Source of the DNA: Limnomonas spitsbergensis | Lineage: Eukaryota; Chlorophyta; Chlorophyceae; Chlamydomonadales | NCBI GenBank assembly: GCA_037349105.1 | Contig: JAYJMM010000119.1 | Span: 1,995,001-2,059,000, forward strand | Length of the DNA stretch: 64,000 nucleotides | Direction: 5' to 3' | In this document: positions 9,560 to 56,699 of the stretch, piece by piece | Layout of the letters: each line of letters begins with the position of its first letter | Numbering within the stretch: position 1 is the stretch's first letter | The notes under the pieces: generated by a model | What the model was told of the DNA's origin: nothing | The model's input: only the letters and a program-made list of their open reading frames with translations | Databases searched by the model: none | Made by a program: the position numbers and the translations under genes

Positions 9560-11340
9560 TAGGAAATCTGAATTTTAAGCCACCTTCAGGGCTTCAAGGG
9601 AAGAATACCCCCCACTGTTTCAGCCAGGTCTTTTCTGAGCAGTGATAGCTTAGCAAAGGTCTGCATGCGCATGGATTTGCAAGAGGCTAGCTGCACGTAC
9701 AGCGCAAGACAACAAGATTACGCTATCAAGCTTACGCTCAAACAGCCCTCATGGTTTTTGAGTCTAGGTGCATGGCTCAAAGCCGCATGCCCCCTCCCCG
9801 CTCCTCTTACCTGGGAATGGTCAATTGCGGTAGCACTCGTGTGTGTCCAGTCGATCGGCCGTTGGCTGATATTCAATGAGCGCAGGCGTTTGGAGCTGTC
9901 GATGAAAGCGTGGACGATGCTTTCTACCGGTAGCCCCACCCCAGCTGGAAAGGGTCCTTGCCACAGGGATCGCTGTGCTACTTAGCTTGGTTCCAGTTGC
10001 AGATTAGATGTCGAGCCACGCGGGCGGGGTGTTTAGACAGGAGAGGACAAATGAATCCCGTAAGCGGAATGTGGCGTCGAAATTTGGAAGGGTTCGATGT
10101 AGGATGCACGGTGCTGTCTCGAAGGCACCGCGGATGCTGGATGCTGTGGTGCTTTGGTGGGGCTGCCAGAACCGTCTCCTGGTGGAGAAATTGTGATTGA
10201 GGCAAACACTCTGGGACGGAGGCGATTGCAAATGTAGAAGAGCAACGTTTGAAACACGCTTGATGATGTGCGAGGACGGATAAAAATGAACAGGCTGCGA
10301 CGCGGCAGCTGGTGGCATTGGGTGGTGGGCGCCTAAGCCATCGGGGCTCGTGTTGCGGGGTGTGGCGGGCGCTCCATCGTCATGTGTGTCCGCACCTTCG
10401 ACATGCACCAATGCACGATAGCAGAACATAACGTGTATTCACCTCAACGTGTATGCAAAGTGGGAGTCGATTGATCCAAAACCATTATTGACCTACCGTA
10501 TGTAGAAATAAAGCGGAAATAAAGAGCTACATGGATCTATTACATGCCAAACTTTCCCGTCTCGTGCGCTGGATTTCACGGAGCATTCCTTACAGCGGTA
10601 TACTAGGTATGTTTATGTGGACACGAGAGGATGGGCCCTTTGAGTGATGTCGAATCATAAGTCATTCAGCTGCTGTGGTGTCCAGGGGTGGTGGCATTTA
10701 GGTGGCCAGGACGCCCAGGAGACTTCATCCATGCCCCCGAAGCATGCGTCTGAATCGATTCTCTGTGAGGCCTGCAACGGTGCTTGCCACTCGAGAATCG
10801 CCGAACGTACAGCGATTGACCAAATCTCGCAGTAATCACATCATGGGACTCCCATGCATCGTCAACCAGGGGACAACCATGCATTTCCGATTTTCGAGTG
10901 CGACGATTTATTTATGTAAGCTCTTTGATTCTTGGCAGCAACACCTGTCTAGGATCAAAGATCATGGAATCACAGGGAACTTTACCAGGGCTGCACACCT
11001 GCGCTCCGAACTTCCATGCCACTCATGGGTTTCCCAGGGCCAAGCCGGCGGCAGCGCCACCACTCCCACACGCCCCTGGAGTTGCATGCACCAGGGCATA
11101 CAACGAGATGAAACAACCGAGGGGTGTCGTGCGCCTGCGGGAATGCTCTGCTACTTACACCAGGCTGCAAAGGGAAGGGATTAATTGACGGGTGCCGAGC
11201 TGATGTGTCAGGCGTCCTATGCCGCTCCCACTCATTGTAACATTGGACAGGCTCCATTCGAGGCAGATGCTATCATACAAGAGGATAGAGAAAGCTACAG
11301 CCCCCTTCCTAGGTCCAGCATTTATTTCCTCAGCAACAAG
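9560..11340. other. Intergenic DNA, no gene recognised
   Basis: Several short overlapping frames are open on both strands (for example 10004-10429 minus), but none shows a recognisable motif, signal peptide or clean exon structure. The stretch lies between the start of the secreted-protein gene and the CTG-repeat region. Confidence 0.4.
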
Positions 11341-39981: not shown

Positions 39982-41202
39982 TCAACACTCCACGGTCATC
40001 TGGCACTTTCGACCACCCTCAAAGTTCAACCTGTAACGGCTCATCATCCCAACAGAGTGCCTCATGTCTCGCGCCATCGCCTCCATCTCCCTCGGCGTCA
40101 ACTCGAACAGACGAGCGCCATTCACGAACGAGTGCCGAAGAGTGTCCAGAGTCGCAGGGCGGCCGAACAGACGACCTAGCACGTACGCAACGTGCGCGGC
40201 AAAACTGCGGTTCGTGTAGGGATCACCCATGCGTGTCTGAAGAAGCCAAAGCCTAGGGCGCACAGACAAGCTAGCACGCACTATCTCCTCAAGCTCCGAT
40301 GGCAACTCACGCTCAACACGCCCGTACTTCTTCCAGGTCTTATAACGGTTCCACACCATCATCATCCCCGAGCCAGGAGGGCGGACAACCAAGTAATTCA
40401 GAAGAGACTCGTCCTGACTGCCAACGGGGGGCGCAGAATCGACTGGAAAAAGAACAGAAGAAACAGAAGATGCATACACGCGCACTGAACCCCAGTCGGC
40501 GCGGCTGGGAGGCACGTAAGTCAGGAGGCTCAAGAGCAGGTAAGCGTCCTCAGGGACTGTCTTCGGATGATTTGACGTAGAGGCAGTAGCAGAGGGCATG
40601 AGAGAGTCACGCTTCGCCAACACCTCGCTCCACTCGACGTGAGCTTCACGCTGACGATCAGATGGCTCAATGTCCTCGTACTTGGCAGCAGCCAAATCAG
40701 TAGCTGACTTAGACAGAAGCTGCCAATCGGCGCAAGCGGCAGGGTAACGAACCTGCAAAAACGGAAGACGCCGGTACAAACCAACTACTGTGGTCGCGTC
40801 CGAACGAAGAGTCTCGGCGCTCAGCGGGGACGTACCGCCACCCTTGCGAACAACACGCACAAGACGCAACGCAGACCATGTCTCAGAAGGATGAGACACA
40901 CACCACTCCACGTCACGCCCAGTAGCAACAGGCAGAGAACGGATGCGCTCACGGTACAGGCGCTTGCTCGCAACCGCAAGAGACGCGTCGCCGTCGATCA
41001 CAGCCTCGTACTCTGCATTCGTCATAGGAAAGCTACCCATAGGAGCAACTGCAGAAACAGGCGGCTTGGACATCTTCTTGACAAACACATTACGAGATGA
41101 CAAAACAGGAGGCGTCACGGTCTTAGGAGACAACTTCGGTACTGATGTTGCGGCAGGCTTGCCACCCTTGGCCAAACTAACCAACAATGAGGGCCGCGAC
41201 AT
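39982..41202 (-). CDS. Tyrosine recombinase (site-specific integrase), 406 aa
   Basis: Intact frame from an ATG at 41202 to a TGA. The C-terminal half shows the tyrosine-recombinase fold signature. The first Arg is in LLTYVPPSRADW (R234). The beta-strand Lys region is WNRYKTWKKYG (about 285-294). The second Arg is in TLDTLRHSFVNGA (R356), and the last active-site motif is MRHSVGMMSRYRLNF (H382, nucleophile Y390). The His that usually starts H-x-x-R is an Asp here (D353). The PPxR and MxHS...Y spacing resembles recombinases of Polinton-like viruses, virophage-like elements and Cryptons rather than bacterial XerC/D. The N-terminal 200 residues are basic and probably bind DNA. The enzyme would integrate and excise the element by strand exchange through a 3'-phosphotyrosine. 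It is the last gene of the minus-strand series, 223 bp downstream of the nuclease stop. Confidence 0.8.
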   Translation of the reverse strand: MSRPSLLVSLAKGGKPAATSVPKLSPKTVTPPVLSSRNVFVKKMSKPPVSAVAPMGSFPMTNAEYEAVIDGDASLAVASKRLYRERIRSLPVATGRDVEWCVSHPSETWSALRLVRVVRKGGGTSPLSAETLRSDATTVVGLYRRLPFLQVRYPAACADWQLLSKSATDLAAAKYEDIEPSDRQREAHVEWSEVLAKRDSLMPSATASTSNHPKTVPEDAYLLLSLLTYVPPSRADWGSVRVYASSVSSVLFPVDSAPPVGSQDESLLNYLVVRPPGSGMMMVWNRYKTWKKYGRVERELPSELEEIVRASLSVRPRLWLLQTRMGDPYTNRSFAAHVAYVLGRLFGRPATLDTLRHSFVNGARLFELTPREMEAMARDMRHSVGMMSRYRLNFEGGRKCQMTVEC

Positions 41203-41424
41203 CTTCTACGTGTCCACTACAAGGCTTGCATAATATGTGACATCGGACGTTTACACCCCCTTCAGCGCCTAAAAACTCCGGCCCACCAAGCACCTGCGAC
41301 GACGCACGCAGAGAACAAAAATACACCGGTTGCGGGCGGGAGTCGCTGATGCCGGAGACGGAAAATACGGAAGGGAATAACTCAGAACGGGGGGGAACAA
41401 CCATCTCGTGTACGGGGGGGATCA

Positions 41425-43094
41425 TCACTCAGTGGAGTGGCCGTCATCGGCATCATCCTCACCATCGTCGGGCTGAGCATATCGGCCAGCAAGAGGAAGG
41501 TGGAGCTTTGCCAAGTCGCTACCCTTGTACATCAGGTACGGGTCGATGCTGCAAGACCAGTCAGCGAGGTTGGCTGGGGCACGGGTAGGCAAGGCAGGAG
41601 GGGTGTAAGCAACAACAGTCGTGAACGAGTCGGCAGGACGAACATCGATACGGGGGTTGTTGGAGTCATAGAACAGGTACAGAAGCGTCTTCTCTCCGAA
41701 ACCCCAAGCACCTTCAGGGTAACGAAGGAAGCATGCGATCCACTCACGGGCGATCAACCAGCGAGCCTTCTTGTCAAGGTCAGAGGTCTCGCCGTCGCTC
41801 GATGTGTACTTACCGCTGGGAAGGATGCGGATCAGAAGCATACGTTCGAACTGGGAGCCACCGATCGCAAAGTGACCCGTGTTCTTAGCAGCCTCAAGCT
41901 CAGGGGTGTAATCGGCGCCTGTGTGGTTCAGGTCGATCTCGAGGATCACAAGAGCCTTGCGACCGCCCAACGAGGCTACCAACACGGTGTCTGCGTTGTT
42001 GTAAGAAGCTGACAAGTCAGAAGGCGTAGTGATAACGGCGATGCTACTGAACGAGGTCAGGTGGCGCAGAAACCCGAAACCGTTCGTCAAGAAAGAACCG
42101 TTGGAGGTCGAGTCAGTTTCGTTAGAAATCACATGTCTACGGCAGTCACGCTGCTTAGAGCCGCATCACATCGAACGCCACTCGGCGGTCTTTTGAGTGA
42201 ACTTCGTTCGACACCAGTCGCAAGATACGTTGTTACGAGACCAGTCCAGAAGGAACGGGGTGGCACCCGCAAGGCACGTGTTGCACTGAAGCAAGGACTT
42301 CAAGGGCGAATCGGACTTCATCACACCTTGAGGATGGGTGAAGATAGAACGAAGGTGGACACGGGTCTCGCCGTGCATGCAATCATGCAAATCGGCCATG
42401 CTTATGAACTCCATATTAGGTTTCACCTCACGGCACACGCCGTGGCAACGGGGGCCAGAAGCACCGTCGCCATCATCGCCATCATCGCCATCATCGAACG
42501 GGAGGGAAGCAGCAGCGGAGGCACCACGGGAGGCGCGGTCAAGGGAGGCGACCTTCTTAACAATCAACTCCAAAGTCGCGTGGTCGTCGCGGGACTGCTC
42601 AACAACGCTCTCATGCTCATTCATTCGAGCCTTCAAGGCGTGAACCTCGCGACGTAAGGTACGAAACGAGTCCTCAATGTCACAAGGAAGGAGGAAGGCA
42701 CGAGATGGCCCTGGGAGGTTCACGTTCAGGGGGACAGAAGACAGAGAACGATGCAGATCAGAATTCACGCGGGCGGGATCAAGAGATCGCTTCTTACTCG
42801 GGGGGGCGCACGATCGGGGGCGGACAAACGGAAGGAAATCTCACCGTCCTCAGGTTCGCTGCGGTATGACCAGCAACAAGTCTCGTCAGTCAACATGATC
42901 GCAGTCTCGGACAGATAAGTACGCAACTCATGGTCGCTATCAGGGTAGGCGCAGCCAGAACCGAACCACTTCAGACAACACACACAACCAGACTTCTTGG
43001 ACAGAACGCGAACGGGCCAACAAGCGAGTCGGCCGGCGTCGTCGCACCAGGTCACCCAAAGACAGTCACCCACGGAAACGATCGGGCGGGACAT
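41425..43094 (-). CDS. PWWP-like / coiled-coil / zinc / PD-(D/E)XK-like nuclease, split gene
   Basis: Three pieces appear to be one gene. Piece 1 (43094-42765) starts with ATG and has an SH3-like PWWP/chromo-barrel pattern: DCLWVTW, CWPVRVLSKKSG, LKWFGSG. Piece 2 (to 42166) has a coiled coil around FRTLRREVHALKARM and a zinc cluster (CNTC, SCDWC); it has no ATG of its own and joins piece 1 at a C7 run (G7 at 42806-42812 on the plus strand). Piece 3 (42132-41425) is in the same frame as piece 2 behind one TGA (42166-42168). It has a nuclease-like core: D in NNADTVLV, then ALVILEIDLNH and Y....E, close to the viral ExD-x-x-H...Y...E nuclease pattern. The role is probably DNA cleavage or end processing for the element, with the PWWP-like part perhaps binding chromatin. 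Frameshift and stop could be decay, sequencing error, splicing or readthrough. Confidence 0.5.
42166..42168 (-). other. In-frame TGA inside the nuclease gene
   Basis: The codon separates ...KTAEWRSM from CGSKQRDCRHVISNET, and both flanks look coding in the same frame. Possible readings are a nonsense mutation, stop readthrough or a missed intron. Selenocysteine is conceivable because it sits next to Cys in a Cys-rich region, but no SECIS element was looked for successfully. Confidence 0.5.
42806..42812 (-). other. C7 homopolymer at a frame change
   Basis: The PWWP-like frame runs DRAPPRVRSDLLIPPA-stop. Shifting at the C7 run instead gives APPSKKRSLDPARVNSDLHR, which continues without a stop into the coiled-coil frame. 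A one-base indel, real or technical, is the simplest explanation. Confidence 0.5.
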
Positions 43095-43239
43095 TCGGGG
43101 GACGTGTGCACGTAGATACGGGCTTCACAGGGGAGGGAAATGATCCAAATAGGTACTTGAATCCACAACGCATCAGGTTTCCCTAAAATTCCCACACAAA
43201 ACACGGCAACCATGTCAGGGATCCTACCAATCCTACCAC

Positions 43240-43735
43240 TCATACTCCGTTTTCAAAGATAGGATATCAGATAGGGGAACCTCCCTATGGGGGAGACTCT
43301 GAAAAACGCCGTAGGAACGGTAGGAACGGTAGGAACGGCACCGGGATCCTACCACTCCTCAGGGGGCGAGGGAGGCGAGGGAGACGAGGGCGTTGCCAAA
43401 AATTGGGAATCCGGGTTGGGAAGAAGGCCGCAGGACCCGTCAATCATTCATTTGGTCACAAATTCATGATCGGTCTACAGATTAGCAGCCTCTCAGGTCA
43501 CTAGTTGTCAATCGAACACCACCTTTCCACCTCAGGTCGGTCCAAGATGTTGCTGGGCGACCACCACAAGTTCGACTCGATACGCTCAGGGATGCTGGCA
43601 ATGAGTATCCACCGAGGCCCTCTGAAAAACCACGGAGTACCGACAATGCATCGATGCCTCACCTTCCCCCCCCCTACACCCCCTACCTCAAATTAGACGG
43701 TTACCTTCGTCGTCGCGCCCCACCTCGCCACAACA
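43240..43735. other. Spacer with GGTAGGAAC repeats
   Basis: Between the nuclease gene and the 403-bp array. It contains (GGTAGGAAC)3 near 43310, GAGGGAGGCGAGGGAGACGAG near 43368 and a C8 run. There is no coding signal. It is the probable promoter region of the minus-strand nuclease gene, but no clear TATA box is seen. Confidence 0.35.
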
Positions 43736-45361
43736 CAGTCGCTATTCGCGTCAAACACCTCGTGCTCGATCTAGGACAAGAAACACCCCTCTGGGCAGGC
43801 CAAGGCACACTGGGGATTTAGGAAACGGCCGCCTTTTTCGGCGGGACACTGACAACCACGGTGCAAGCGCCCGCCCGCTGAAAACGACGCGTGGCTAGTA
43901 GTGATGAACTTATTATATAGGGATAAGAAACACATAGATGGCACGAGACTGGGGCCGAGGGTGCGAGCGGGCGGGCGCGCCTCCAAGACCACGAACCAGT
44001 GGTTCGACGGCCCTCCCGAAAAAGCCGAAAACGACGGGTGTTGTAAAAGTGCCACGAAACCCCTCAAAAACGGCCACCAGGTGCCCCCCTCGGATTCGAG
44101 CACCAAAACAGACGCGACACTGGGAGACCCGGGACTGGCAGTCGCTATTCGCGTCAAACACCTCGTGCTCGATCTAGGGCAAGAAACACCCCTCTGGGCA
44201 GGCCAAGGCACACTGGGGATTTAGGAAACGGCCGCCTTTTTCGGCGGGACACTGACAACCACGGTGCAAGCGCCCGCCCGCTGAAAACGACGCGTGGCTA
44301 GTAGTGATGAACTTATTATATAGGGATAAGAAACACATAGATGGCACGAGACTGGGGCCGAGGGTGCGAGCGGGCGGGCGCGCCTCCAAGACCACGAACC
44401 AGTGGTTCGACGGCCCTCCCGAAAAAGCCGAAAACGACGGGTGTTGCAAAAGTGCCACGAAACCCCTCAAAAACGGCCACCAGGTGCCCCCCTCGGATTC
44501 GAGCACCAAAACAGATGCGACACTGGGAGACCCGGGACTGGCAGTCGCTATTCGCGTCAAACACCTCGTGCTCGATCTAGGGCAAGAAACACCCCTCTGG
44601 GCAGGCCAAGGCACACTGGGGATTTAGGAAACGGCCGCCTTTTTCGGCGGGACACTGACAACCACGGTGCAAGCGCCCGCCCGCTGAAAACGACGCGTGG
44701 CTAGTAGTGATGAACTTATTATATAGGGATAAGAAACACATAGATGGCACGAGACTGGGGCCGAGGGTGCGAGCGGGCGGGCGCGCGTCCAAGACCACGA
44801 ACCAGTGGTTCGACGGCCCTCCCGAAAAAGCCGAAAACGACGGGTGTTGCAAAAGTGCCACGAAACCCCTCCAAAACGGCCACCAGGTGCCCCCCTCGGA
44901 TTCGAGCACCAAAACAGACGCGACACTGGGAGACCCGGGACTGGCAGTCGCGATTCGCGTCAAACACCTCGTGCTCGATCTAGGGCAAGAAACACCCCTC
45001 TGGGCAGGCCAAGGCACACTGGGGATTCAGGAAACGGCCGCCTTTTTCGGCGGGACACTGAGAACCACGGTGCAAGCGCCCGCCCGCTGAAAACGACGCG
45101 TGGCTAGTAGTGATGAACTTATTATATAGGGATAAGAAACACATAGATGGCACGAGACTGGGGCCGAGGGTGCGAGCGGGCGGGCGCGCCTCCAAGACCA
45201 CGAACCAGTGGTTCGACGGCCCTCCCGAAAAAGCCGAAAACGACGGGTGTTGCAAAAGTGCCACGAAACCCCTCAAAAACGGCCACCAGGTGCCCCCCTC
45301 GGATTCGAGCACCAAAACAGACGCGACACTGGGAGACCCGGGACTGGCAGTCGCGATTCGC
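43736..45361 (+). repeat. 403-bp tandem repeat, four units
   Basis: Units start at 43736, 44139, 44542 and 44945 (the last slightly truncated), with only a handful of substitutions between them. Each carries a TATTATATAGGG TATA-like box, a GCCGCCTTTTTCGGCGGG foldback and the perfect dyad CGAACCAGTGGTTCG (at 43992, 44395, 44798 and 45201). Frames of about 107-146 codons are open on both strands but are conserved only because the DNA is. An inverted copy lies at 49104-49436, so the primase-helicase gene is enclosed by inverted repeats. Its role could be a promoter, replication origin or recombination site. Confidence 0.92.
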
Positions 45362-45477
45362 ATCGCATGGGTATTCATAAAATCGCCGCTTTTTACACTG
45401 CGAACCACGGTGCAAGCGCCCGCCCCCCGAGCATCAAGAACCTTCTATCGGATTCGTGTCAGGCCCAGGCTACCGCT

Positions 45478-48400
45478 TCAATCCTCCATCATGTCACGCA
45501 ACGCGTACTGGGAAAGCACCGCGCTCTCTCCGTTGCCGTCGGCTGCAGTCGAGGCAGTCGAGGCAGTCGAGACAGTCGAGACAGTCGGGACAGTCGAGGC
45601 AGTCGAGGCAGTCGAGGCAGTCGAGGCAGTCACCAGGTGCCCCCACAGGGGCAGAGTGCACGCCTCTAGGCGGGCAGAGGCGTGTTCCCCGGGCGGTATG
45701 CGCCCGGTGCGCCGCAGACGCAGCTTCACCAGCTCAAGCATGAGGGACACACCGTCGCCGTCCAAGCGGTACCCACCCGTCTTGAGACCGCGGACCCCCT
45801 GCACCTGCCTGCGCTCCTTCACGCCCTTGAGAGACAGACCCACCGCGCCGAGCACCATGTTGAGCGCCTTGACGATACTGCGCAAGTCCCACCCCTTGTC
45901 CTTAGCGCCCGCCTTGACCTGCCGGAACACCTGGACCGTCTTGGCGTAGTCCTGGAACATCGGCAGAGGAAGCAGCTTCTCATGGAAGAGGCATGTCAGG
46001 TCGTCGATCGCCGTGTCCGTGTCGAAGGGAGAGAGGAGGCCGAGACCAAACAACACATCCTCCACCAGAGGGATCTTGAACACGTCGCTCCGCTCCGACA
46101 TGCTCACGTCCGTCTGCGTCGGACGCAAAGCGGGACACAACACGCGGGCCAACAGCTTAGCCTTGGGCGAGCCGGTCTGAGTGCCGTTCGCCGCGAGGAA
46201 CGCCGCGTCGATGAGGTCCACGCCCCACGCAGCCTTGAACGACACCACGAACAGGCGCCACTTGTCCTCCTCGGTCGCGACGTTGCCGTGCACGCGCATG
46301 CGGAGATCCTCCAGCTCCGCCTCGCTCGACACAGGCTCAGAGGACAGCATGCGCGCGGCGGTCTCGAGGGGCGTCGACGCTTCGACGCCGGGACGCACGA
46401 CGCGCTCGAGAGACACCGAGTGGCCGGCGGCCTCGGCCATCACCGTGAACTCGCGCAGGTAGTCGATCTGCGCGTTGTACCGCTCCGCCTCGACGTAGGT
46501 CATGACTGTGAAGAAGTAGTCGTAGAGCGGCACGACGGCACAGGCGGGCCCGACAGACTTGGGGATGGCTGCGGCCCACAGGTCGTCCAGCGTGCCGCGC
46601 TCCACCTCAAGCACCCGACAATCAGACAGAACCCGGTCGGAGTGTCGCTCGGAAATCCTGAAGGTCATCCAGCGGATCCACTGCGCCATCTCGCTGCTGG
46701 TCATGGGCACGCGAGATGCGACCGTCGACATCCGCATGTTGGGAGATGACAGGCAGCGGATCCGAGGGTCATGCAGCTTGCGCACGCGGAAGGCCATCTG
46801 GAGCAGCGTCGCCGGGAGAGCCGACATCGGGCATGCGTAGGCGTACATGCGGTCAAAGTGCTCGCTGCTGAAGTCCACGCCCGCGGCGATCGTGGGGCTG
46901 TACACCACCAACTGGAAGCGCCGCCACAGGGCGTCCACGTCCGCCAGCTCGGCCTTCAGCGCGTCCGAAGTCTTCGACGTGTGCAGCACGCACCGATCGG
47001 GGCCGACCGCCTCGACGCCGGACGCATACACCACCATGGCCTTCTCGGAGGACAGGGACACCACCACCACGTTGAGGCCAGCCGACAGGTCGGCGACGAT
47101 CTCCTCGTGCCACGTCTTTGCGTCGTTGCTGAAGGCGAACGTGCGCGGCGCAGACGGACGGCGCTCGTTCACCACCAGGATGTTCGCATGGCGGAGGAAT
47201 GCATCCGTGACAGCGCCCCACGTGGCGTCAAGGGTCACCACGCCGCGCACAGCGAAGCGAAGCGTCGTGGCGAACTCGTGGATGGAACGACGAGGCTCCC
47301 TCACGGTGGGAGAGGAAAAGTGCCGCAAGAGGCTCTCAACTTCGTCAAGGACCACCACGTCGTAGCGGGGAAGCTTCAGGTCGTATCCAAGACGCCACAT
47401 CGACTCAACCTGAAGAGGACAGAATAGAGAATAAGCATCAGAGAATACCACGCGCACAACAGCCAGCACATCCAGGACACATCCAGGAGAAAGGGTACCT
47501 GGCTGATCACGCGAGGATACATCTTGTGGTCCGACAGGTCCTCCGTCTTGGGCACGTCGAGGTAGTTCACGAAGCCGTGGGCCTTCAGCTTGCGCAGCTG
47601 CTCCAACGCCAGGCTCTGGCGGTACGTGATCACAAGCACGGTGCAGTCAGGGCCCAGGTCTCGCAAAAGGGCGTCCAGGAACACGCACTTGCCGCTGCCC
47701 ATGGGGCTGCGGATGGACAGGGTGGATGCAGCGCCAGAGTCAGCGCCGGCGTGGAGCCAGCGCTCGACGGCGGCGTTGAAGGCTTCACAGTGGCTCGGAG
47801 GCGGAGCGTCGCACGCCATGAGCGCCGCTAACTCGGAGGCGGAGAGGGGGCGTCGCTCCATGTACTCGAGGTCCACGCGGACGGCGTTGGACATGTAAGC
47901 GTCCGAATCCGCTCGCAGCCGCCCGAGACGACGGGGCGGGTGGGCCGCGCAGTGAGCAGAGAAGCACTTGGCGTGAATGTCGCCGACCTCATCGACCCAG
48001 CAGCGCAGGTTCTGTTCACCCGGGTGCACGTGGCCCGTGTAGCAGGCCTCGGAGCGGTCGAAGTAGGAGAACTTGACGCCGCAGATGTCATGGATGTCAT
48101 GGGTGTCATGGGATGCATACGCGGTCGGGTGAAAGCTGTCGCGAAGGAGGTCCTGCATCCGAGTCATGACCTGCGCCTCCTCGCGATGGGGATCTTGCAA
48201 CGCCGTGTCCTCGGGCACACGCAGACGCCGACGGTGGTCACGCACGGCGCGGGGTATGTGCGCGGGGACGCGGAGGGTCGATCTCTGACCAAGAGGGTCC
48301 AGGCACGTGATCAGCGTCTCGCGCGGAGAGACGGACGACGTGTCGCCTCGGAACAGTGTCAGCACGGAGTCCGGGCGCCCGAACTTGGTAGCGCCGGCGG

Positions 48401-49013
48401 CGCGCATCTCGCGGTCCTTGGTGTACACCGAGAGGTCGACGAGCGACCCGACGCCGTCCGGGTCGAGCTCACGCAGGCGCAGCGCAAGGTGAGCGGCGCC
48501 GGTGGCGTCAGACACGTGATTGCTGGTGTACACGTGCTGCGGCGAATGCGTGCTCACGATCAGGTGGAGGCTCAGCTTCGAAGGGTTCGGGCTCACGAGC
48601 CAGATCAGGTCAGTGACGGGGTCGAGATGAACGCCGTAGTCGCCGAGGAAGATCGCGCAGATCATGCGGTCGGCGTGCGTCACGAGGGCTTCGACGCTTT
48701 CGAAATGCGGAGGGAGGGACGGGCCGTCGAGGTCGAGGTAAGGCTTGCACGGGCGACCGTGGGGGATAAGCTCGAAAATATGACGGCGAGAGCTGCGCAT
48801 CCGGCGAAGGTGGAGCGGGGCCGCGTCCCAGTCCGCGTAGCACGCAAAGTGGCGGTAACCGCTGTCGGGATCTTGCAGCTGGACCATCGCAGAGGCGCCG
48901 CGGAGAGAGGCGTCGCTCTTCATGCGGTCTTTGGAGCCAGAGCCGATGTGCCACGTCGCGCCGTACATGTCAACAGGCGCCATGGGCGCGGGAGGACGAC
49001 GACGGGAAGACAT
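45478..49013 (-). CDS. PrimPol-type primase fused to herpes OBP-like SF2 helicase, 1148 aa
   Basis: Two exons, 47499-49013 and 45478-47409, with an 89-bp GT/AG intron. The ATG at 49013 is the first Met with good continuity. The N-terminal archaeo-eukaryotic primase domain has HIFELIPHGRPCKPYLDLD (catalytic D94 and D96), KLSLHLIV (S148, H150) and LVDLSVYTKDREMR (D193, R204), as in PrimPol and UL52-like primases. A zinc motif follows (C324, H328, C338, C350, C355). The helicase has SPMGSGKC (K442), VLVITYRQSL, YDVVVLDEVESLL (D527, E528), GVVTLDA, YSPTIAAGVDF and QMAFRVRKL, the signature order of herpesvirus origin-binding-protein helicases. The position after the Walker Lys is Cys, not Ser/Thr. 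The C-terminus ends in TAS/TVS repeats coded by a 9-bp microsatellite. It could prime and unwind the element's DNA. The frame is uninterrupted over 3.4 kb, so it is probably under selection or recently inserted. Confidence 0.8.
45541..45632 (-). repeat. 9-bp microsatellite coding for TAS/TVS repeats
   Basis: The plus-strand unit GGCAGTCGA is repeated about 10 times with A/G variants. On the minus strand it is in frame with the primase-helicase and gives a Thr-Ala-Ser tail. Confidence 0.85.
47410..47498 (-). other. 89-bp spliceosomal intron in the primase-helicase gene
   Basis: Donor CAG|GTACCC and acceptor CTCTTCAG|GTTGAG, with a pyrimidine-rich 3' end. Splicing joins RVISQ to VESMWRLGYD in phase 0, and the family pattern continues across the junction. 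The intron separates helicase motif Ia from motif II. Confidence 0.8.
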
Positions 49014-49103
49014 GATGTGGGCACAACACACCCGCACACCGGGTAGAAGCATTTAAGCTGTGACGCCGCATCTCTCCGATGCATCGCGCTACTCAGAGGT
49101 GTG

Positions 49104-49436
49104 GTCGACCTGGTGGCCGTTTTTGGGGTGTTTCGTGGCACTTTTACGACACACGTCGTTTTCGGCTGTTTCGGGAGGGCCGTCGATACACTGGTTCGTG
49201 GTCTTGGAGGCGCGCCCGCCCGCTCGCACCCTCGGCCCCAGTCTCGTGCCATCTATGTGTTTCTTATCCCTATATAATAAGTTCATCACTACTAGCCACG
49301 CGTCGTTTTCAGCGGGCGGGCGCTTACACCGTGGTTCTCAGTGTCCCGCCGAAAAAGGCGGCCGTTTCCTGAATCCCCGGTGTGCCTTGGCCTTCCCAGA
49401 GGGGTGTTTCGTGCCATAGATCGAGCACGAGGTGCG
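49104..49436 (-). repeat. Inverted copy of the 403-bp unit
   Basis: Reverse complement of most of the unit at 43736-45361, with roughly 5-8% differences by eye. The CGAACCAGTGGTTCG dyad is broken here (CGAACCAGTGTATCG). It lies immediately upstream of the primase-helicase gene and probably contains its promoter. Confidence 0.9.
49262..49285 (-). promoter_or_regulatory. TATA-like box upstream of primase-helicase
   Basis: The minus strand reads CTTATTATATAGGGATAAG, about 255 bp before the ATG at 49013, inside the inverted repeat copy. The same box occurs in each 403-bp unit. No transcript data are available. Confidence 0.3.
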
Positions 49437-49599
49437 TCAGGGAGGCGCGTCATCATCCGCCTTGCGCGTGGAAGCTACCCGGAAGCTGCGTGGGCGTGAG
49501 CAAGAGACAAGGGGGAGTCAGACTCGGGCATATCCGCGGCATTGCGATGGACGGACACATCCAGGGCGCATGGGCGCATGGGTTGTCTTGCTTGATGTG

Positions 49600-49808
49600 C
49601 GATGGTCCAGAGATGCGTACATGACAATCAAGAAGCGGTCCAGAGATGCGTACATGACAATCAAGAAGCGGTCCAGAGATGCGTACATGACAATCAAGAA
49701 GCGGTCCAGAGATGCGTACATGACAATCAAGAAGCGGTCCAGAGATGCGTACATGACAATCAAGAAGCGGTCCAGAGATGCGTACATGACAATCAAGAAG
49801 CGGTCGAG
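49600..49808 (+). repeat. 33-bp minisatellite, 6 copies
   Basis: The unit is GGTCCAGAGATGCGTACATG plus ACAATCAAGAAGC. It encodes an 11-residue periodic peptide on either strand; no gene is called. Confidence 0.92.
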
Positions 49809-49809
49809 C

Positions 49810-49985
49810 AGGTGCGATGCATCGCATCTTCTTTGTCGCCCGCCGCAGGCGTGTTGGCGTCGCCAACGGGAAACGGGGTGCGATGCATCGGCACGCACCC
49901 GGTTTATGGCTGTGCCCGAGGGGTGAGGGCGAGGCACGAGCCCGAGTCCCCGAGGAGCCAGCCAAGGACGGGCGTAGCCCGGGCG
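49810..49985 (-). repeat. GATGCATC-rich block, inverted copy
   Basis: Reverse-complement version of the block at 50330-50530 and 54585-54745. It shares CGCCCGCCGCAGGCGTGTTG, GCGTCGCCAACGGG and CCCGAGTCCCCGAGGAGCCA, and carries GCGATGCATCGC palindromes. Confidence 0.75.
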
Positions 49986-49989
49986 CCAT

Positions 49990-50150
49990 GTCCCAGCGAT
50001 TCACGGACATCCCAGGACATCCACCGACATCCCCAGCGATTCACGGACATCCCAGGACATCCACCGACATCCCCAGCGATTCACGGACATCCCCAGCGAT
50101 TCACGGACATCCCAGGACATCCACCGACATCCCCAGCGATTCACGCAGGA
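49990..50150 (+). repeat. CAGCGATTCACGGACATCCC short repeats
   Basis: Alternating CCCAGCGATTCACGGACATC and CCAGGACATCCACCGACATC words, about 4-5 times. Confidence 0.85.
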
Positions 50151-50324
50151 CTTGTCATCTCGCTAAACTCGCGCAAAAGTCTGCGGCGGCATGCATCCGC
50201 CTTAGGTCAGGGGATACATGGATGCATGGATGCATGGATGCATGCGATGGTTCAGGCCTCCAAGAGAATGCGCAGCCGCATACATTATACATATTCGCCG
50301 TCGACTAATGCGTGAGTGGGACCT

Positions 50325-50705
50325 CGGGGCATGGCGCCCGGGGCCTATGGCCCACGTCCCTGGCTGGCTCCTCGGGGACTCGGGCTCGTCCCTCACCCTC
50401 GCCCCTCGGGCACAGCATAAAACCGGTCGCGTTCCGCACCCGTTTTTCCGTTGGCGACGCCAACACGCCTGCGATGCATCGGCGGCGACAAAGAAATTGC
50501 GATGCATCGCGCTTGCTCTGTCGGACACCAACTATCTGCTCCTTCACCGTCATCCAAGCGACGAAACGGACTTGCCATCATCCTTGTCTTGGTCGATGCG
50601 GTGTGGGTTGTCCGGAGAAGCGTATGAAGTGCTGGTAGTAGATCCGTCAAAAAGCGACAGAGCAAGTGCGATGCATCGCATCTTCTATTGTCGCCCGCCG
50701 ATGCA
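50325..50705 (+). repeat. ~370-bp direct repeat, left copy
   Basis: Shares a long alignable stretch with 54580-54905 in the same orientation. Common words are TCCCTGGCTGGCTCCTCGGG, GTTGGCGACGCCAACACGCC, CTTGTCTTGGTCGATGCGG, TCCGGAGAAGCGTA and GCGATGCA(T/G)CGCATCTTCT. The two copies bracket the polymerase-helicase ORFs. Confidence 0.75.
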
Positions 50706-50761
50706 TCGCAGGCGTGATGGCACACACAAACACACACAAACACACACACGACGCACCACGG

Positions 50762-51175
50762 CATCCCAGCGCACCTCGGCCGTTCCAGCTGTTCCAGCAG
50801 AAAAGCAACTTTCTGGTGCCAGGGGGGGGGGTCCTCCTTTTCAAAATAAGTTTGTTTTCATCTGGAACATCTGGAACAGAGCCCCCTTCGGGGGGGGGTG
50901 GGGGTAGGGAGGGTGTGGGGGTGGTCTGTTTGCCAGGTTGGGTGAAGGACTGCAGCGCACCTCGGCCGTTCCAGCTGTTCCAGCAGAAAATTTCATCTGG
51001 AACATCTGGAACATCTGGAACAGAGATCCTTCGGGGGGGGCTGGGGTAGGGAGGGTGTGAAGATCGTCTTTTTGCCAGGATGGGTGGAGGACTGCAGCGC
51101 ACCTCGGCCGTTCCAGCTGTTCCAGCAGAAAAACAACTGGTTCCCAGTCTGCCCCCAAGTTGTGGCGTTGTCGTG
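50762..51175 (+). repeat. GTTCCAG hairpin repeat, three units (fourth at 55170)
   Basis: Each unit has GCGCACCTCGGCCGTTCCAG then CTGTTCCAGCAGAAAA. The first two are followed by CATCTGGAACATCTGGAACA, so GTTCCAGCTGTTCCAG can pair with CTGGAACATCTGGAAC (15 of 16). A fourth, lone copy is at 55170-55200 beside the second SF3 helicase. Confidence 0.75.
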
Positions 51176-51450
51176 AACACGCCCACGTCGGTAAAGCCTC
51201 TCCGCCACATGTTGTGCGTTGGGGGAGGTGGGCTACACACTTTACACAAAATACACCGTCGGGTTGAACCCCCCTTCAGAAGACATGGTCGGTCCTAGCC
51301 CCCCCCCCTTCTATATATCCTACAAGAAACAAGTGTGTATTTTGTGTAAAGTGTGTAGATTAAATATAGGGAAGCCGGCGCTGTGGCATGCCATGTTTTT
51401 CACACTGGTTCCCAGTCTGCCCCCAAGTTGTGGCGTTGTCGTGAACATGC
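51140..51450 (+). repeat. Direct repeat pair with GTGTATTTTGTGTA motifs
   Basis: The sequence GGTTCCCAGTCTGCCCCCAA plus GTTGTGGCGTTGTCGTGAAC occurs at about 51142 and 51403. Between them, GTGTATTTTGTGTAAAGTGTGT occurs in inverted orientation (51236-51262 and 51331-51356). A third copy, GTGTATTTTGTGTAGGGTGTGT, is at 54997-55019. The motif sits just past the 3' ends of both helicase ORFs, so it may be a terminator, promoter or element-end signal. Confidence 0.6.
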
Positions 51451-51462
51451 CCTGGTTTCGTT

Positions 51463-53952
51463 TTAGCTCCTAGGGCTCGGCTTGTCGTCGTCGTCGCCGT
51501 CGACTGCCATAGCTTCCTCCAACAAGCGCACACGTGTGAACCCCCTTTCGTTCCGGAAACCTCGGACGCAGCAGTTGTTGTCTCGCACGGCCCCCATCTT
51601 GCCCAACCGGTCCTTGAGCACCGTGATGGACATCCCGTTCGCTCGGGCGACGTTGTCCACCTGTTTCGTCAGTACAAAGTCCTCGCGGTTGCCGGTGACC
51701 TTGAAGCATCTAGCCATCACCGCGACGTCATCCCCAATGTCCTCGCGGTACTCCATCGTGTCGTCCCGGATGCTGTCGCAAGGCACCACAGGACCGGGCC
51801 GGTACGCGTCGATGACCATCCAAGTGAAGGCGGCGATGACGTCGGTACGCCTGATAAAGTCGTTCTTCAACGCATCGTCACGCGGCCGGTAGTAGGACAG
51901 AGCGTTCGGGCTCGAGAGCTCCTCGGCGGACACGAACTTGAATGGAAACTTGATGAGCACCATGGTGGACATGGCGTCACGGGGTGTCACCGTCGGGATG
52001 TCGTTGAGGTTCATGAACAACTTGGTCGCCACGCGGAAGGTGCATTCGTCCTTGAAGTTCTTGCGCGCGCTCATGGTGTCTCCGCCGGATTGGAAGCTCT
52101 TGAGTAAGTTCCCATCGAGCTTGATGGACTTGCTGGACGAATCGCACTTGACCTCGTTCGTGTACGTCTGGCGCGCGTACTCGCAGTCGAGCGCCCACGA
52201 CAGGGACTTTGCCGCGTCCGACGTCGCGTTCTGTTGGAGGAGGAATGCGTTTGCGTTCACCGTGTTCACATAACATTGCCAAGTCAGCTGGTTCAACTCC
52301 TGGACCAGGCCCTTGCCGCTGTTCCTCTCTCCCAACGCCATCGCAAACTGCTTGTCCCCGTACTCGCCCGCCATCGCACGAGCTATGAGCGCCAAGTACG
52401 TCTCGATCTTGTCCGCGTCGCCGAGCGTGGACATGAACACACGCTCCCTCAACTCGTCGAACACCGTGCACGGCGGATGCTCCGCCGGGAAATTGCGCTT
52501 GATGCACTGGCGGGGCAAAACGTCCGGCCGTTCCTCGTAGGTGAAGAAGCGACCTTGCCGGAAGTCGTAGAGACCATCTAGATAGCACACGCACCCAATG
52601 TTGGACTCCTTCATCCTCAGGCGGAAGTCAGGGTCCTCGGGTATTAGGTTGGCCGCGGCCTCGACGATGCGCCGCACGGTGGGCATGTTGCCGCTCATTG
52701 TCGACTCATCGCCACCCTCCGTGATGCGTCGGATGTTGTTGCCCATGCATCGTGACATCATCAGCTTGCGCACCATCGCTTCGGCTCGTCATCTGTCCAT
52801 AGCTGACCATCACGCACCCACACACGCGCCCCACAACTCGTAACCGACGCCCCGAGGTCCTCCAAGAAGATCCGGCCCGCTCCCACGTCGTCCTCGGCAT
52901 AGCGCGGCGCCCGAGGCACTCCAACGCCGCTGTATACCGTTAGAGGGACGTCTAGCTTGTCCAAGGTCATGTCCTTTACCTTGATTTTCAAGCGGTGACC
53001 GGTTCGCTCGAAGACAAAGTTGCTTGCGCACTCGAGCATCCCTGCATCGTCCTCTTCCTCGCCGGGCAGACGTTTCTCCACCATGCAACCGTCGAAGACG
53101 AGCACTCCGACCCGTCTGTGCGTGGCCGTGCCTGATTCCACGAACTCCCGGAGGGCCATCAAAGCGTCGTTCTCCATGTCGTATAGGAGGAGGTTCACGG
53201 CCGACCCCAGAACGTTGCCCGTTATCTTCTTCTTCCTCGCCATCTTCAGGTAAACAGAGTCACCGTGACCGACGAGGACCTCGCGCACCTCGCGCATCTC
53301 GGCCGTGCGTGAACGACGTCAACCACTCCTCGCCACCTGGTTGGATGGATGCGAGGTCGCGGCGTGAAGGGTCTCCGCTCCCCCCGTTGATCACTGCCAG
53401 CACGGCCGCCTTGGCCGCAGGGTGTCCTTCCACCGGGTCTAGGTCGGCCATGATGCCGTCACGGCGACGGCAATAGTCTTCAAGGCGTGGGCACGTCACG
53501 CTCATACGCTTGCAGTGTTGCAACAGCATGGTTGGGTGGCAGTTGTGGAAGTCGAGGTCGTCGTAAAAGGGGTGCGCGATGGCGTTCCTTATCTCCCGGG
53601 CCATCGACTGCAGCGAGAGCCCGCGTTCTGCAAAGTAGCGGCCGTGTCCGGGAACAGCGCGTCGGTATGTCACCCGGTGCGTGCCGTCGGGGTTGGACGA
53701 CGCCTTGTAGCGCCGGATCGAGGAGAGCGCCTCCTTCGCATCCGTTTCAGGGCGGAAGTTGAAGCTGCTGAAATTGTTTATGATGAATGTCAATGCACCG
53801 TAGTCGAAGCGTTCCATCAGAGTCAACTTGCCGCTGTCGTTCGATCGCAGTTGGACGTCAAGTTTCTCGCGAGACAGCAGCCGAGGCATGTGGATTGTCG
53901 GGGGGGGCTTCATTTCTAGGGGGAACGCTTGAAGCTGATGGACCACACCCAT
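51463..53952 (-). CDS. Polinton-like-virus-type polymerase + SF3 helicase, in three overlapping frames
   Basis: ORF a (53952-53260) has a polymerase motif A-like FYDDLDFHNCHPTMLLQ (D132, D134) and a motif B-like KAAVLAVINGG (K181). ORF b (53297-52761) has GNVLGSAVNLLLYDMEND and a motif C-like VGVLVFDGCMVEK (D69). ORF c (52776-51463) is an SF3 helicase with Walker A LGERNSGKG (K155), a WALDCEYARQTYTNEV region and a motif C-like FMNLNDIPTVTPRDAMS. Domain order matches the family-A-related polymerase-SF3 helicase fusions of Polinton-like viruses. Each ORF starts with ATG and overlaps the previous one by 38 and 16 nt. ORFs a and c are in the same frame and b is shifted, so the pair of shifts cancels. 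The assignment to the polymerase family is by motif only. Confidence 0.6.
52758..52780 (-). other. Frame change b to c (-1) in the polymerase-helicase
   Basis: ORF b ends EPKRWCAS-stop and ORF c begins MVRKLMMSRC within the same 16 bases (GCGATGGTGCGCAAGC). A -1 shift restores the frame of ORF a. Confidence 0.5.
53257..53300 (-). other. Frame change a to b (+1) in the polymerase
   Basis: ORF a continues as FTHGRDARGARG-stop, while ORF b opens with MREVREVLVGHGDSV. Joining requires skipping one base near ACGCACGGCCGAGATG. No classical slippery heptamer or intron borders are visible. Confidence 0.5.
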
Positions 53953-54109
53953 TTAAGCTAGAGCAAGGCGCGTCCTCCAATCCTCGCTAGGCAAGTCGGA
54001 CAATGGGTGAGGTCAATCGGCCCGGAGTACACCATGAATGCGCAATATTACGCTTCGAACTGCAGACCTCAAGAAGCTGTGATCCTCTGTTCCATCATTC
54101 CACCTCGAC

Positions 54110-54570
54110 GGCACGAGGATGGCCGAGGATGCATGAGGATGCAAGAGGATGCAGTAGGATGGCCGAGGATGCAAGAGGATGCAAGAGGATGCAAGAGGAT
54201 GGCAGAGGATGCGCGAGGATGGCCGAGGATGCAAGAGGATGGCCGAGGATGCAATAGGATGCATGGCCTAGGATGCAAGAGGATGGCCGAGGATGCAATA
54301 GGATGGCCGAGGATGCAATAGGATGCCCGAGGATGCAAGAGGATGGCCGAGGATGCAATAGGATGGCCGAGGATGCAAGAGGATGGCCGAGGATGCAATA
54401 GGATGCCCGAGGATGCGCGAGGATGGCCGAGGATGCAAGCGGATGCCCGAGGATGTCATAGAAAGCCCGATGATGCAAGAGGATGCCCGAGGATGTCATA
54501 GAAAGCCAGATGATGCAAGAGGATGCCCGATGATGCAAGAGGATGCCCGATGATGCGCGAGGATGTGTCC
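54110..54570 (+). repeat. GAGGATGGCC/GAGGATGCAA minisatellite (~10-20 bp)
   Basis: About 45 decamer-like words GAGGATGNNN in higher-order pairs. The minus strand gives periodic HPRPSSCILGHP peptides in all frames. It lies between the polymerase and the direct repeat. Confidence 0.92.
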
Positions 54571-54579
54571 GGAAATGGC

Positions 54580-54905
54580 GCCCAGGCTTCGCCCGTCCCT
54601 GGCTGGCTCCTCGGGGACTCGGGCTCGTGCCTCGCCCTCACCCCTCGGGCACAGCCATAAACCGGGTGCGTGCTGCACCCAGTTTCCCGTTGGCGACGCC
54701 AACACGCCTGCGGCGGGCGAAAAAGAAGATACCGTCACCCACGCGACGCCACGGATATGCCTTCGTCTTGTCCATGTCTTGGTCGATGCGGCGTGGGTTG
54801 TTGTCCGGAGAAGCGTAGAAAGGGGCGGTAGCAGATTCTTCCAAGAAGCGGTCCAACAGGTGCGATGCAGCGCATCTTCTTTGTCGTTTATAAACAACAC
54901 AAAAT
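54580..54905 (+). repeat. ~370-bp direct repeat, right copy
   Basis: Right-hand partner of 50325-50705. The copies are diverged (several indels, and GATGCATC palindromes partly lost), so this is not a recent duplication. Confidence 0.75.
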
Positions 54906-55302
54906 ACACAAAATACACATTGTTGTTTCTAGGGTATATGAAGAGGATGGTAGTAGGATACAGATTTCCCCTAAGAGAGAGAGAGGCTCAAACCGAGGGT
55001 GTATTTTGTGTAGGGTGTGTACCTTGCCATCACTCTGAAAACGTCGAAGATGCGAGACGGATGCACAGGGATGTCCATGAAAAGGGGGAACACCACAAGC
55101 TTGTGGCCGGGGGGGTCTGGGGTAGGGAGGGTGTGGGGATCGTCTTTTTGCCAGGATGGGTGGAGGACTGCAGCGCACCTCGGCCGTTCCAGCCTCTCGA
55201 TACCCCCTTCGAGACCCCTCCACGACCCCCAAAACCCCCATGGAAAAGAAAGCGGACCACCACCACCACACCCTTTTCTTCACTGTCTCGAACTGGGCCC
55301 TC

Positions 55303-56211
55303 CTATGCGGTGCGTGCCTCATGTACCAACTCCATGTTGCGCACACGCCATCGCTTGCTCCGGTTCGCCTTGGAGTAGTTTGGGCAGCAACCAACCAGTG
55401 CTCGTTCGCCACACGCACAACACATGTGGTCTTGAACTACCTCGTAGCCCAACTTCAGGAACGGTCCGACCTCCTTGGTGCTCAGCTTCCATGCCACCCC
55501 GGGATGCTTGTACCGCACGTAAGCATCAAACGCGCTCTCGAGTGCGGGCCATTCTGTCATTGTGCCAGGGATCTGTCGCACATAGTGTTTGGTATTGAGG
55601 CTGTTGCTGTCGTCCGGGCCAGCAACGAGGAACTGATAAACTAGGTTCCCCTCGGCCATCGCGTCCTCTTGTGCATCCCTGAGGACTGCCGGGCACGCCG
55701 ACCAAAACGATCCGTTGCCGACGGCGGCGATCATGCGCTCATACGCGCCAGGCAGCGTGCGACCACGTTGGGCAGCTCCACCTTGCGTATGCAGTCTTCC
55801 AATACTTCCAAGCTCGCGTCCGCGGTCGCTGCATCAATGGGTCGGCCCGGCATTGTCCGAGTAATCAAACATCTTGTTTGACGCCGCGATGAGGGGCGCC
55901 CGCCACACCTCTGTGAATGCCATTCCATGCTTGACCGAGATCTGTACCCGTTCACCACTGACCATCTTCTGGAACATCTCTTGTGGAAGGATGCGGCTGA
56001 TGCGGTCGGGTGCATCAGTGATGAACACCGCTTCTTTTCCAATCTTGTCTTGAAAACTGAACGTGCTCTCGTTGCTGCCATCCACCTCGGCGATCTCGTC
56101 CTCTGAGAACATGGCCCCCGCCACTTTCAACACGGTAGACTTCCCGGTGCCACCCTCGCCCAAGAGCAACGGCATGACTTGCCAGTTGTCTCTCTCACGG
56201 ACGCGGTACAA
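55303..56211 (-). pseudogene. Second SF3 (D5-like) helicase, frame-broken, N-terminus missing
   Basis: 56211-55834 encodes the helicase core: Walker A GEGGTGKST (K24 of this frame), SFQDKIGKEAVFITDAPDR and motif C-like APLIAASNKMFDYSDNAG. The frame then stops. A shifted frame carries ADASLEVLEDCIRKVELPN, and at 55734 the original frame resumes with MIAAVGNGSFW and a C-terminal zinc-like segment (CCACGERALVGCCPNY) typical of the viral helicase C-domain. The loop after DNAG, where family members usually have an Arg finger (S-R-R), seems to be missing. There is no ATG at the 5' end (first usable codon TTG at 56211) and no primase domain upstream. It is probably an inactive remnant of a virus-like replication helicase, different from the one at 51463-52776. 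Confidence 0.6.
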
Positions 56212-56249
56212 CGGGGATGTGGTGGCGTGCTTCTCCGCCTCAGCCTCTC

Positions 56250-56350
56250 CGTGCTTTCCGCTGCCCGTCGGGCTTTGCCACGCATCCTCTCGGGCGTCGG
56301 GCTTTTTCCACGCATCCTCTCGGGCGTCGGGCTTTCCACGGCTCCTAGGA
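56250..56350 (-). repeat. ~29-bp repeat, three copies, at the right side of the element
   Basis: CGTCGGGCTTT(N)CCACGCATCCTCTCGGG occurs three times just upstream of the SF3 remnant. Past this point composition drops to AT-richer DNA, so it may mark the element's right edge. Confidence 0.7.
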
Positions 56351-56699
56351 GGCGTCCAATGCGTCCACGGCGTTTACCACTTTTTCTGCACCAATGCATC
56401 GATCGCGGCCCCACCTTGTTGCTCGTGAGCGTCGCTATACTCTTCTGTGTGAGGATGCATGTGCCCGCCATCCATGACACATGCACGACGGAGATAGCAA
56501 TTGGGGAGGTCAGGGGGGAGTCCAGAGAGATGGGTTCTCTCGATGCAACGTCGGATGTTTGCATTTCATCACGCACGCATACTGCAAAACAGTCATGCGG
56601 CATCTCATCAACGCCTGGGGAGTTTCGCAGTCGTGGGGAGTGGTTGGAGGAGGTCGGCAACATCTTGCATGCAAGACTCGGGGGGCACCTCCGTCGGTA

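Follow-up and report, generated by a model that had tools for sequence, protein, structure and literature searches.

Transpovirons are small capsid-less replicons that are bounded by terminal inverted repeats (TIRs) and travel among viruses, being copied and inserted by a helper virus. Elements of similar build are found in the green alga Limnomonas spitsbergensis, in the interval from 39982 to 56.3 kb of a 64,000-nt stretch (the window; positions 1995001–2059000 of contig C119 within a 260.2-Mb assembly of 124 contigs, across which other copies were compared). Like transpovirons they are small, TIR-bounded and apparently capsid-less; unlike them they carry other genes, and no giant-virus carrier is shown for them. 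The interval is divided into four adjacent modules, called T (tyrosine recombinase), A (primase and UL9-type helicase), B (TVpol and SF3 helicase) and D (a decayed second SF3 helicase), and is best explained, with a probability of about 0.6, as a nest of distinct selfish DNA elements in the nuclear genome of an alga and not as one composite virus.

The protein types are already known from Polinton-like viruses (PLVs), mriyaviruses and giant viruses. Cryptophyte PLVs are described with TVpol-S3H and Prim-S2H replicases (PMC12220804), and TVpol and Yrec PLVs have been reported from a green alga (PMC10675990); a TVpol-SF3 fusion, a primase-SF2 helicase fusion, a tyrosine recombinase, TIRs and integration into an algal genome are common to such viruses and the locus treated here (PMC12220804, PMC4642659, PMC10675990). 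PLVs, however, measure 14–40 kb and contain capsid genes, whereas here each replicase occupies about 4.5–5 kb between its own TIRs. By published description, the same domain order, a primase with a following UL9-related helicase, is present in mriyaviruses, mimivirus R8, African swine fever virus F1055L and Ostreid herpesvirus; there the fusion is one gene of a larger virus (35–45 kb in mriyaviruses), whereas in the window no other gene accompanies it between the TIRs, and one copy has an intron-like insertion (PMC11253617). A group of phage helicases has also been tied to UL9 (PMC5862659).

TV-Pol elements have been proposed to be replicative transposons, and an origin of PLVs and virophages from capsid-less replicons has been proposed, in the case of TV-Pol, in the same report (PMC2579912). 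The chloroplast TV-Pol and D5 helicase island of Nephroselmis is likewise a green-algal mobile element with TVpol and helicase, but there the two genes are linked and reside in the chloroplast, while here they are fused, lie in the 260-Mb assembly and are accompanied by TIR-B and a subterminal array (PMC2579912). Cryptons, as capsid-less eukaryotic tyrosine-recombinase elements (PMC3212892), may resemble module T; A and B differ from them in lacking a recombinase and having long TIRs. What is new is the capsid-less, one-gene, TIR-bounded element with a primase-UL9 helicase, of which no published description was found among the titles and openings of abstracts listed, a coverage outside which most subscription literature falls.

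Element A, a primase-UL9 helicase between terminal repeats

Element A and its parts are as follows.

44965–49434, gene on the minus strand: element A (4.47 kb, extra terminal copies from 43756) with 327-bp TIRs
43756–45291, plus strand: left TIR, a 403-bp unit repeated in tandem to four copies, with 327-bp arms at 43756, 44159, 44562 and 44965 that are 95–96% complementary to 49108–49434, from the inverted-repeat search
45478–49052, minus strand: the sole gene, archaeo-eukaryotic primase and UL9/Herpes_ori_bp SF2 helicase (pieces 47376–49052 and 45478–47469), from homologs, profiles and the C13 copy
47413–47496, minus strand: 84-nt GT..AG insertion, a probable intron, absent from the C13 copy
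49108–49434, minus strand: right TIR, from the inverted-repeat search (shared 36-nt core at 49401–49436)

The gene takes up 3575 of the 3816 nt between the arms, and since the interior is thus filled by the replicase gene, A has no capsid genes; the capsid-less class suggested in a preliminary description of this DNA, made from the sequence alone, holds for this element. That description had also named a fusion of a PrimPol primase and an origin-binding protein (OBP) helicase, and the searches agree: 34 homologs were retained from 7996 scored candidates, one of them annotated in the green alga Tetrabaena socialis, both pieces match Herpes_ori_bp (2e-17 and 6e-5), and a profile of eight relatives recovers UL9-type origin-binding proteins from the PDB at about 1e-25 and human PrimPol at 2.5e-9. 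A genome contig collection, searched with the primase-helicase only, gave no confirmed relative.

The ends of A are confirmed by a copy on contig C13 (45833–50332), which ends at its TIRs: two arms surround one open frame (45588–49787, stop to stop), collinear with 44965–49436 of the window at 90–93% DNA identity. Between the window and C13:1–60000 only elements and repeats are common and the flanks differ. As in a TIR DNA transposon, matching TIRs and the same gene are present at two independent sites. At least 18 matches to TIR-A exist in the genome, namely five in the window, four long ones elsewhere (three on C13, one on C14) and nine short ones; the 403-bp units of the left array are 98–99% identical. 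Arm identity is 98.2% within C13 and 94.8–96.0% within the window, as against 90.7–94.2% across loci, and the closer resemblance within an element fits renewal of both ends at each transposition. The only recombinase match on C13 is about one-third identical and lies 33 kb from A. Neither of the two marks of a Polinton (Maverick), a retroviral-type integrase and a protein-primed polymerase B, was found in A or among the 20 open reading frames (ORFs) of the window that were scanned.

When the window and C13 genes are compared, the two pieces show synonymous divergences of 0.085 and 0.105 and ratios of nonsynonymous to synonymous change (dN/dS) of 0.29 (508 codons) and 0.24 (636 codons). This low ratio records past, not present, selection and says nothing of whether the window copy works. 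These data support the view of A as a mobile replicon that has one gene and no capsid.

The two frames of the window gene are separated by the 84-nt insertion, which sits in a CAG/GT site with CAGGT at each edge. The C13 copy (92% identical) is uninterrupted there and the eight aligned relatives read through the site, though these are mostly direct metagenome predictions and the Tetrabaena protein possibly comes from a spliced gene model; the comparison favours a gain over a loss without proving it. The insertion may be viewed as a recent intron gain or loss in a mobile gene. With a single match genome-wide, its membership in an introner family is unsupported.

Element B, a TVpol-SF3 gene between other repeats

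Element B adjoins A and comprises the following.

49826–54730, gene on the minus strand: element B, TVpol-SF3 between 160-bp TIRs
49826–49993, plus strand: left TIR (TIR-B), from the inverted-repeat search and genome matches
50326–50518, minus strand: extra inverted copy of TIR-B inside the element, from the same two sources
51463–53952, minus strand: TVpol and SF3 helicase gene, with frameshifts near 53290 and 52783
54114–54565, no strand: subterminal 10/20-bp tandem array, GAGGATGC-like, with similar arrays on C13 and C14
54571–54730, minus strand: right TIR (TIR-B), from the inverted-repeat search and genome matches

The TVpol piece is, by its motifs, what we take to be a family-A-like polymerase. 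The TVpol assignment as such draws on motifs together with a published account of TV-Pol (PMC2579912). From 4269 candidates, 29 homologs of the SF3 piece were obtained (top identity 82%), and the TVpol-SF3 pieces match primase/helicase families of PHROGs; the SF3 family profile found nothing useful in the PDB. On C13 (36054–38474) the gene is one uninterrupted 807-aa frame of 90% DNA identity. The fusion named in the preliminary description is thereby upheld, but not as a working gene: in the window it is spread over three frames, its relatives reading through with two shifts, and this copy of B is dead. Values of dN/dS for TVpol are 0.22 (428 codons), 0.12 (171) and 0.23 (200). Two relatives, P0058 and P0066, have an added stretch that we presume to be restriction-endonuclease-like from its look.

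TIR-B has at least 29 genome matches (three on C119, six on C111, seven on C13, 13 on C14). On C14, a TVpol relic with its subterminal tandem array lies between arms at 10916 and 16125; an array of the type found in the window lies inside a TIR-B arm there, and on C13 a similar array and TIR-B are placed upstream of TVpol, as in the window. That TIR-B is a genome-wide miniature inverted-repeat transposable element (MITE) was considered and dropped, since its matches are confined to four contigs and some surround TVpol relics. On C13 the orientation of TVpol-SF3 relative to A is opposite to that in the window. Of the 14 genome matches to the SF3 piece, the window and C13 ones are closely similar, those by the end of C14 are disrupted or truncated where the contig stops, the copies on C81 are 49% identical, and those on C30 and C93 are distant.

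No double-jelly-roll major capsid protein, minor capsid protein or packaging ATPase was found; A is filled by one gene, and in B the scan covered the TVpol-SF3 pieces only, its other ORFs (at most 229 aa) being unscanned and the libraries covering PLV capsids poorly. The locus has a replicase of PLV type, TVpol-SF3, and none of the capsid or packaging genes of PLVs were detected in that search; element B is likely a capsid-less replicon.

On C81 (880840–889755) TVpol-SF3 lies in a 3564-bp inverted repeat with arms 99.7% identical around a 1.8-kb centre. In the 14 kb examined there, no recombinase or primase-helicase matched, and no match to TIR-A or TIR-B was better than E 0.07. The arrangement has the look of an inverted dimer of recent date, such as could arise by fold-back replication, and a GGTG next to it may be a 4-bp target-site duplication. 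Near TVpol in the window are MITE-like inverted sequence (51136–51452 and 54891–55021), in which 51234–51362 pairs inverted with 54891–55021 at 72%, and a 49-bp direct repeat at 51136 and 51404.

The flanking modules T and D

On either side of A and B lie two further modules.

39982–43124, minus strand: module T, an open recombinase gene beside a disrupted PWWP/zinc/nuclease-like gene
39982–41202, minus strand: tyrosine recombinase, 406 aa in an open frame, with 14 homologs, a tyrosine-recombinase fold of low TM-score and conserved residues
41428–43124, minus strand: PWWP-like/zinc/nuclease-like gene in three open pieces (42768–43124, 42169–42840 and 41428–42165), broken up by one stop codon and one change of frame
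55306–56373, minus strand: module D, a decayed fragment of a second SF3 (D5-like) helicase with stops and frame changes (DUF5906, 1.7e-10)

All named genes of the interval are on the minus strand and lie where they had been placed, as ORFs, homologs and profiles agree. The recombinase had been recognised as such beforehand, which the searches bear out: 14 homologs were retained from 7997 scored candidates (top identity 69%), and the model (pLDDT 76.7, pTM 0.61) aligns with XerA and Cre at E of about 1e-4 with TM-scores, by query length, of only 0.31–0.34. R234, K288, R356, H382 and Y390, to which we assign the catalytic roles, are conserved in the family, so that fold and R-K-R-H-Y signature are both present, the former at low TM-scores. 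In Pfam the window protein itself has no match, and just 2 of the 15 family members match Phage_integrase, weakly (best E 0.005); the family profile found nothing useful in the PDB. The top viral models matched are proteins of Aureococcus anophagefferens virus and Tetraselmis virus 1 (1.2e-11, TM 0.41–0.42). As an OLV11-like recombinase is named in the former virus (PMC4642659), a link of the window protein with the OLV11-like group is plausible on the modelled structure.

Relatives of the nuclease-like ORF occur at five further places (C80, C37, C99, C116 and C119:64.0–65.7 kb). On C80 it ends a single 587-aa frame in which zinc-binding cysteines precede it, which makes the zinc and nuclease-like pieces of the window parts of one disrupted gene; the family proposed earlier is therefore real, yet the window gene is broken, and the PWWP piece, which alone has no significant match, is assigned by position and look only. 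The second SF3 helicase had likewise been correctly classed, as its DUF5906 match shows, and is likewise broken. On C119:58.8–65.7 kb, all on one strand, a stop-containing PWWP/zinc gene (64.0–65.7 kb) has a distant recombinase 4–5 kb off, about 25% identical and with internal stops; an ORF there is, we assume from its motifs, C5-methyltransferase-like. The recombinase has no match on C80, C37, C99 or C116, and 39982–43124 is not bounded by any inverted repeat of at least 35 nt. Module T is probably an independent recombinase element. At C13:11949–17696 a recombinase has behind it, in the same orientation, an ORF whose start looks SH3/PWWP-like by eye and a 716-aa ORF, neither of which matches Pfam.

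At C30:380455–387498 a distant recombinase adjoins a DUF5767 gene (6e-38) and a long ORF that presumably has, from its motif, a fibre-like end; this is probably a larger virus-like insertion. With a distant SF3 helicase on the same contig, it indicates virus-like insertions in this genome. On another explanation, A and B would be satellites derived by internal deletion from larger Polinton-like or giant viruses, having kept ends and replicase and being copied and inserted by a helper virus. The lack of an integrase in A, and of a recognisable one in B, would suit such satellites; against them, for the recombinase, SF3 and OBP pieces IMG/VR yielded no confirmed relative (the OBP query being one protein alone), TIR-A and TIR-B were met in no virus, and neither repeat matches C30. 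We regard satellites as distinctly unlikely.

A shared core at shared loci

TIR-A is present on three contigs (C119, C13 and C14), TIR-B on these and C111, and a 36-nt core on all four. The core is the last 36 nt of TIR-A, and it is contained in the spacer between back-to-back TIR-B arms on C14 and C111; such arms at C14:4986–5156 and three on C13 have other spacers, in which it is missing. The core-bearing spacer has 20 matches, on C14, C111, C13 and C119. In the window the similarity to the C14 spacer continues from the end of A into the flank (positions 41–139 of 188), which makes the site adjoining A such a spacer; the left flanks of A showed no comparable continuity with it. C111 also carries an OBP relic. 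The start of C13 and the end of C14 appear to be near duplicates, from their matching match positions, so that the co-occurrence amounts to about three independent loci (C119, C13/C14 and C111). This gives A and B the appearance of distinct replicons accumulating at common sites.

Mirror-image TIR-B matches lie at both ends of C14 (4.8–16.5 kb and 839.6–851.3 kb), which, with the start of C13 seeming to echo the end of C14, has a subtelomere-like appearance or is an assembly effect.

The appearance of a duplicated stretch shared by C13 and C14 would also suit independent relics without functional relation, kept side by side because recombination is low or because repeat-rich DNA has undergone segmental duplication, as would a window full of tandem arrays in which TVpol, the PWWP/zinc gene and the second SF3 helicase are all broken. 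Such chance neighbours are highly improbable: the window and C13:1–60000 share elements and repeats, not flanks (those of C111 were outside the comparison), the core and the right half of the spacer continue across the end of A, and the gene of A has a low dN/dS.

The core is an imperfect palindrome, TCGTGC-10 nt-GCACGA, and so is shaped like a site for a tyrosine recombinase, which is no more than suggestive, given that the two cores of A are inverted to each other. For the same reason, inverted rather than direct cores, A as a simple recombinase integrant was dropped.

One composite virus or a nest of elements

In the preliminary description the whole interval was taken for one replicon with three replication modules. 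Taken further, it could be a single composite Polinton-like element with recombinase, primase-OBP and TVpol-SF3, which lost its capsid genes and was rearranged by insertions and tandem growth: such proteins or close kin occur in PLVs, the genes share a strand, the ends of A and B are met on the same contigs, and in a relative the recombinase and primase-OBP may share a 13247-bp contig. But A is a discrete 4.47-kb unit with its own matching TIRs, recurring on C13 without T alongside; B has its own TIRs and, compared with A, is turned round on C13; on C81 the distant TVpol stands alone in the 14 kb examined; and the partner gene of T recurs on contigs without A or B. Separate occurrence of the ORFs, with no common boundaries or gene order, had been named beforehand as the observation that would tell against one element, and this is largely what is seen (C13, C81, C119:58.8–65.7 kb). 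After comparison with these copies (C119:58–66 kb in the last case) a composite of 39.98–56.3 kb was rejected as the principal explanation, and we consider it unlikely. The alternative then offered, of neighbouring or nested elements, was right as to separateness; there are four modules, and their ends differ from the 39.98–49.4 and ~50.3–56.3 kb foreseen.

Several observations weigh against a nest of separate elements. Co-occurrence of A and B isn't expected from separate random insertions, and that their terminal sequences co-occur on the contigs found tells against a flat rejection of the composite. C14:5157–10655 lies between TIR-B arms, and no TVpol match was found in the part of it that was read (all but 10001–10400); an extra TIR-B copy sits within B itself (50326–50518); TIR-B may therefore not belong to TVpol alone, which slightly lowers confidence in separate elements. 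For A, just two full copies exist, no transposase was found in it and no target-site duplication is consistent at the two copies. Its Walker A motif in the window departs from the relatives at one position, so that the enzyme may be impaired despite an open frame, and the frameshifted TVpol is as low in dN/dS as the gene of A, which makes the ratio a record of past selection. Recombinase and PWWP/zinc gene are paired at only 2 of 6 places. Finally, the metagenomic recombinase P0042 and primase-OBP P0012 both list a longest contig of 13247 bp, hinting that T and A share a contig in some relative; this is the only exact coincidence in 266 pairs (14 x 19 rows listing a contig), but among the 1091 compared, two further pairs are within 15 of each other, and chance may explain it.

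For a nest of separate elements the following route is proposed. The primase-UL9 helicase of A would most likely bind and open an origin inside the 327-bp terminal repeats and prime synthesis, a host or helper-virus polymerase would complete the copy, and an enzyme acting in trans would insert it elsewhere; B may take the same route, with TVpol as primer and polymerase and SF3 as helicase. Accumulation at shared loci could proceed through the common 36-nt core, used by a tyrosine recombinase or by homologous recombination. A more specific version, in which two unrelated capsid-less one-gene replicons share a recombinase-type core and stack via the same tyrosine recombinase in trans, is possible but doubtful; if true, it would be a eukaryotic counterpart of integrative plasmids whose tandem accretion takes place at a single att site. 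Both A and the TVpol elements resemble nuclear-genome versions of the proposed ancestral capsid-less replicons, A having an open gene once under selection and, on C13, nearly identical ends. With them it becomes testable whether a bare replicase with terminal repeats moves by itself, and which recombinase serves it.

Other features of the window

No tRNA gene and no Rfam match at the gathering score was found in the window, and ten additional ORFs gave nothing significant in Pfam. Tandem arrays are abundant, TTTAGGG-type repeats among them, which, like the Tetrabaena relative, point to a green-algal host. Inverted-repeat sequence, unmentioned in the preliminary description, makes up 49.8–50.7 kb and 54.6–54.9 kb. 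In window 49800–50700 and on C13, C14 and C111, some copies of a repeat are seen by eye to contain short palindromes, GCGATGCATCGC, that others lack, a pattern that looks like repeated insertion of small palindromes.

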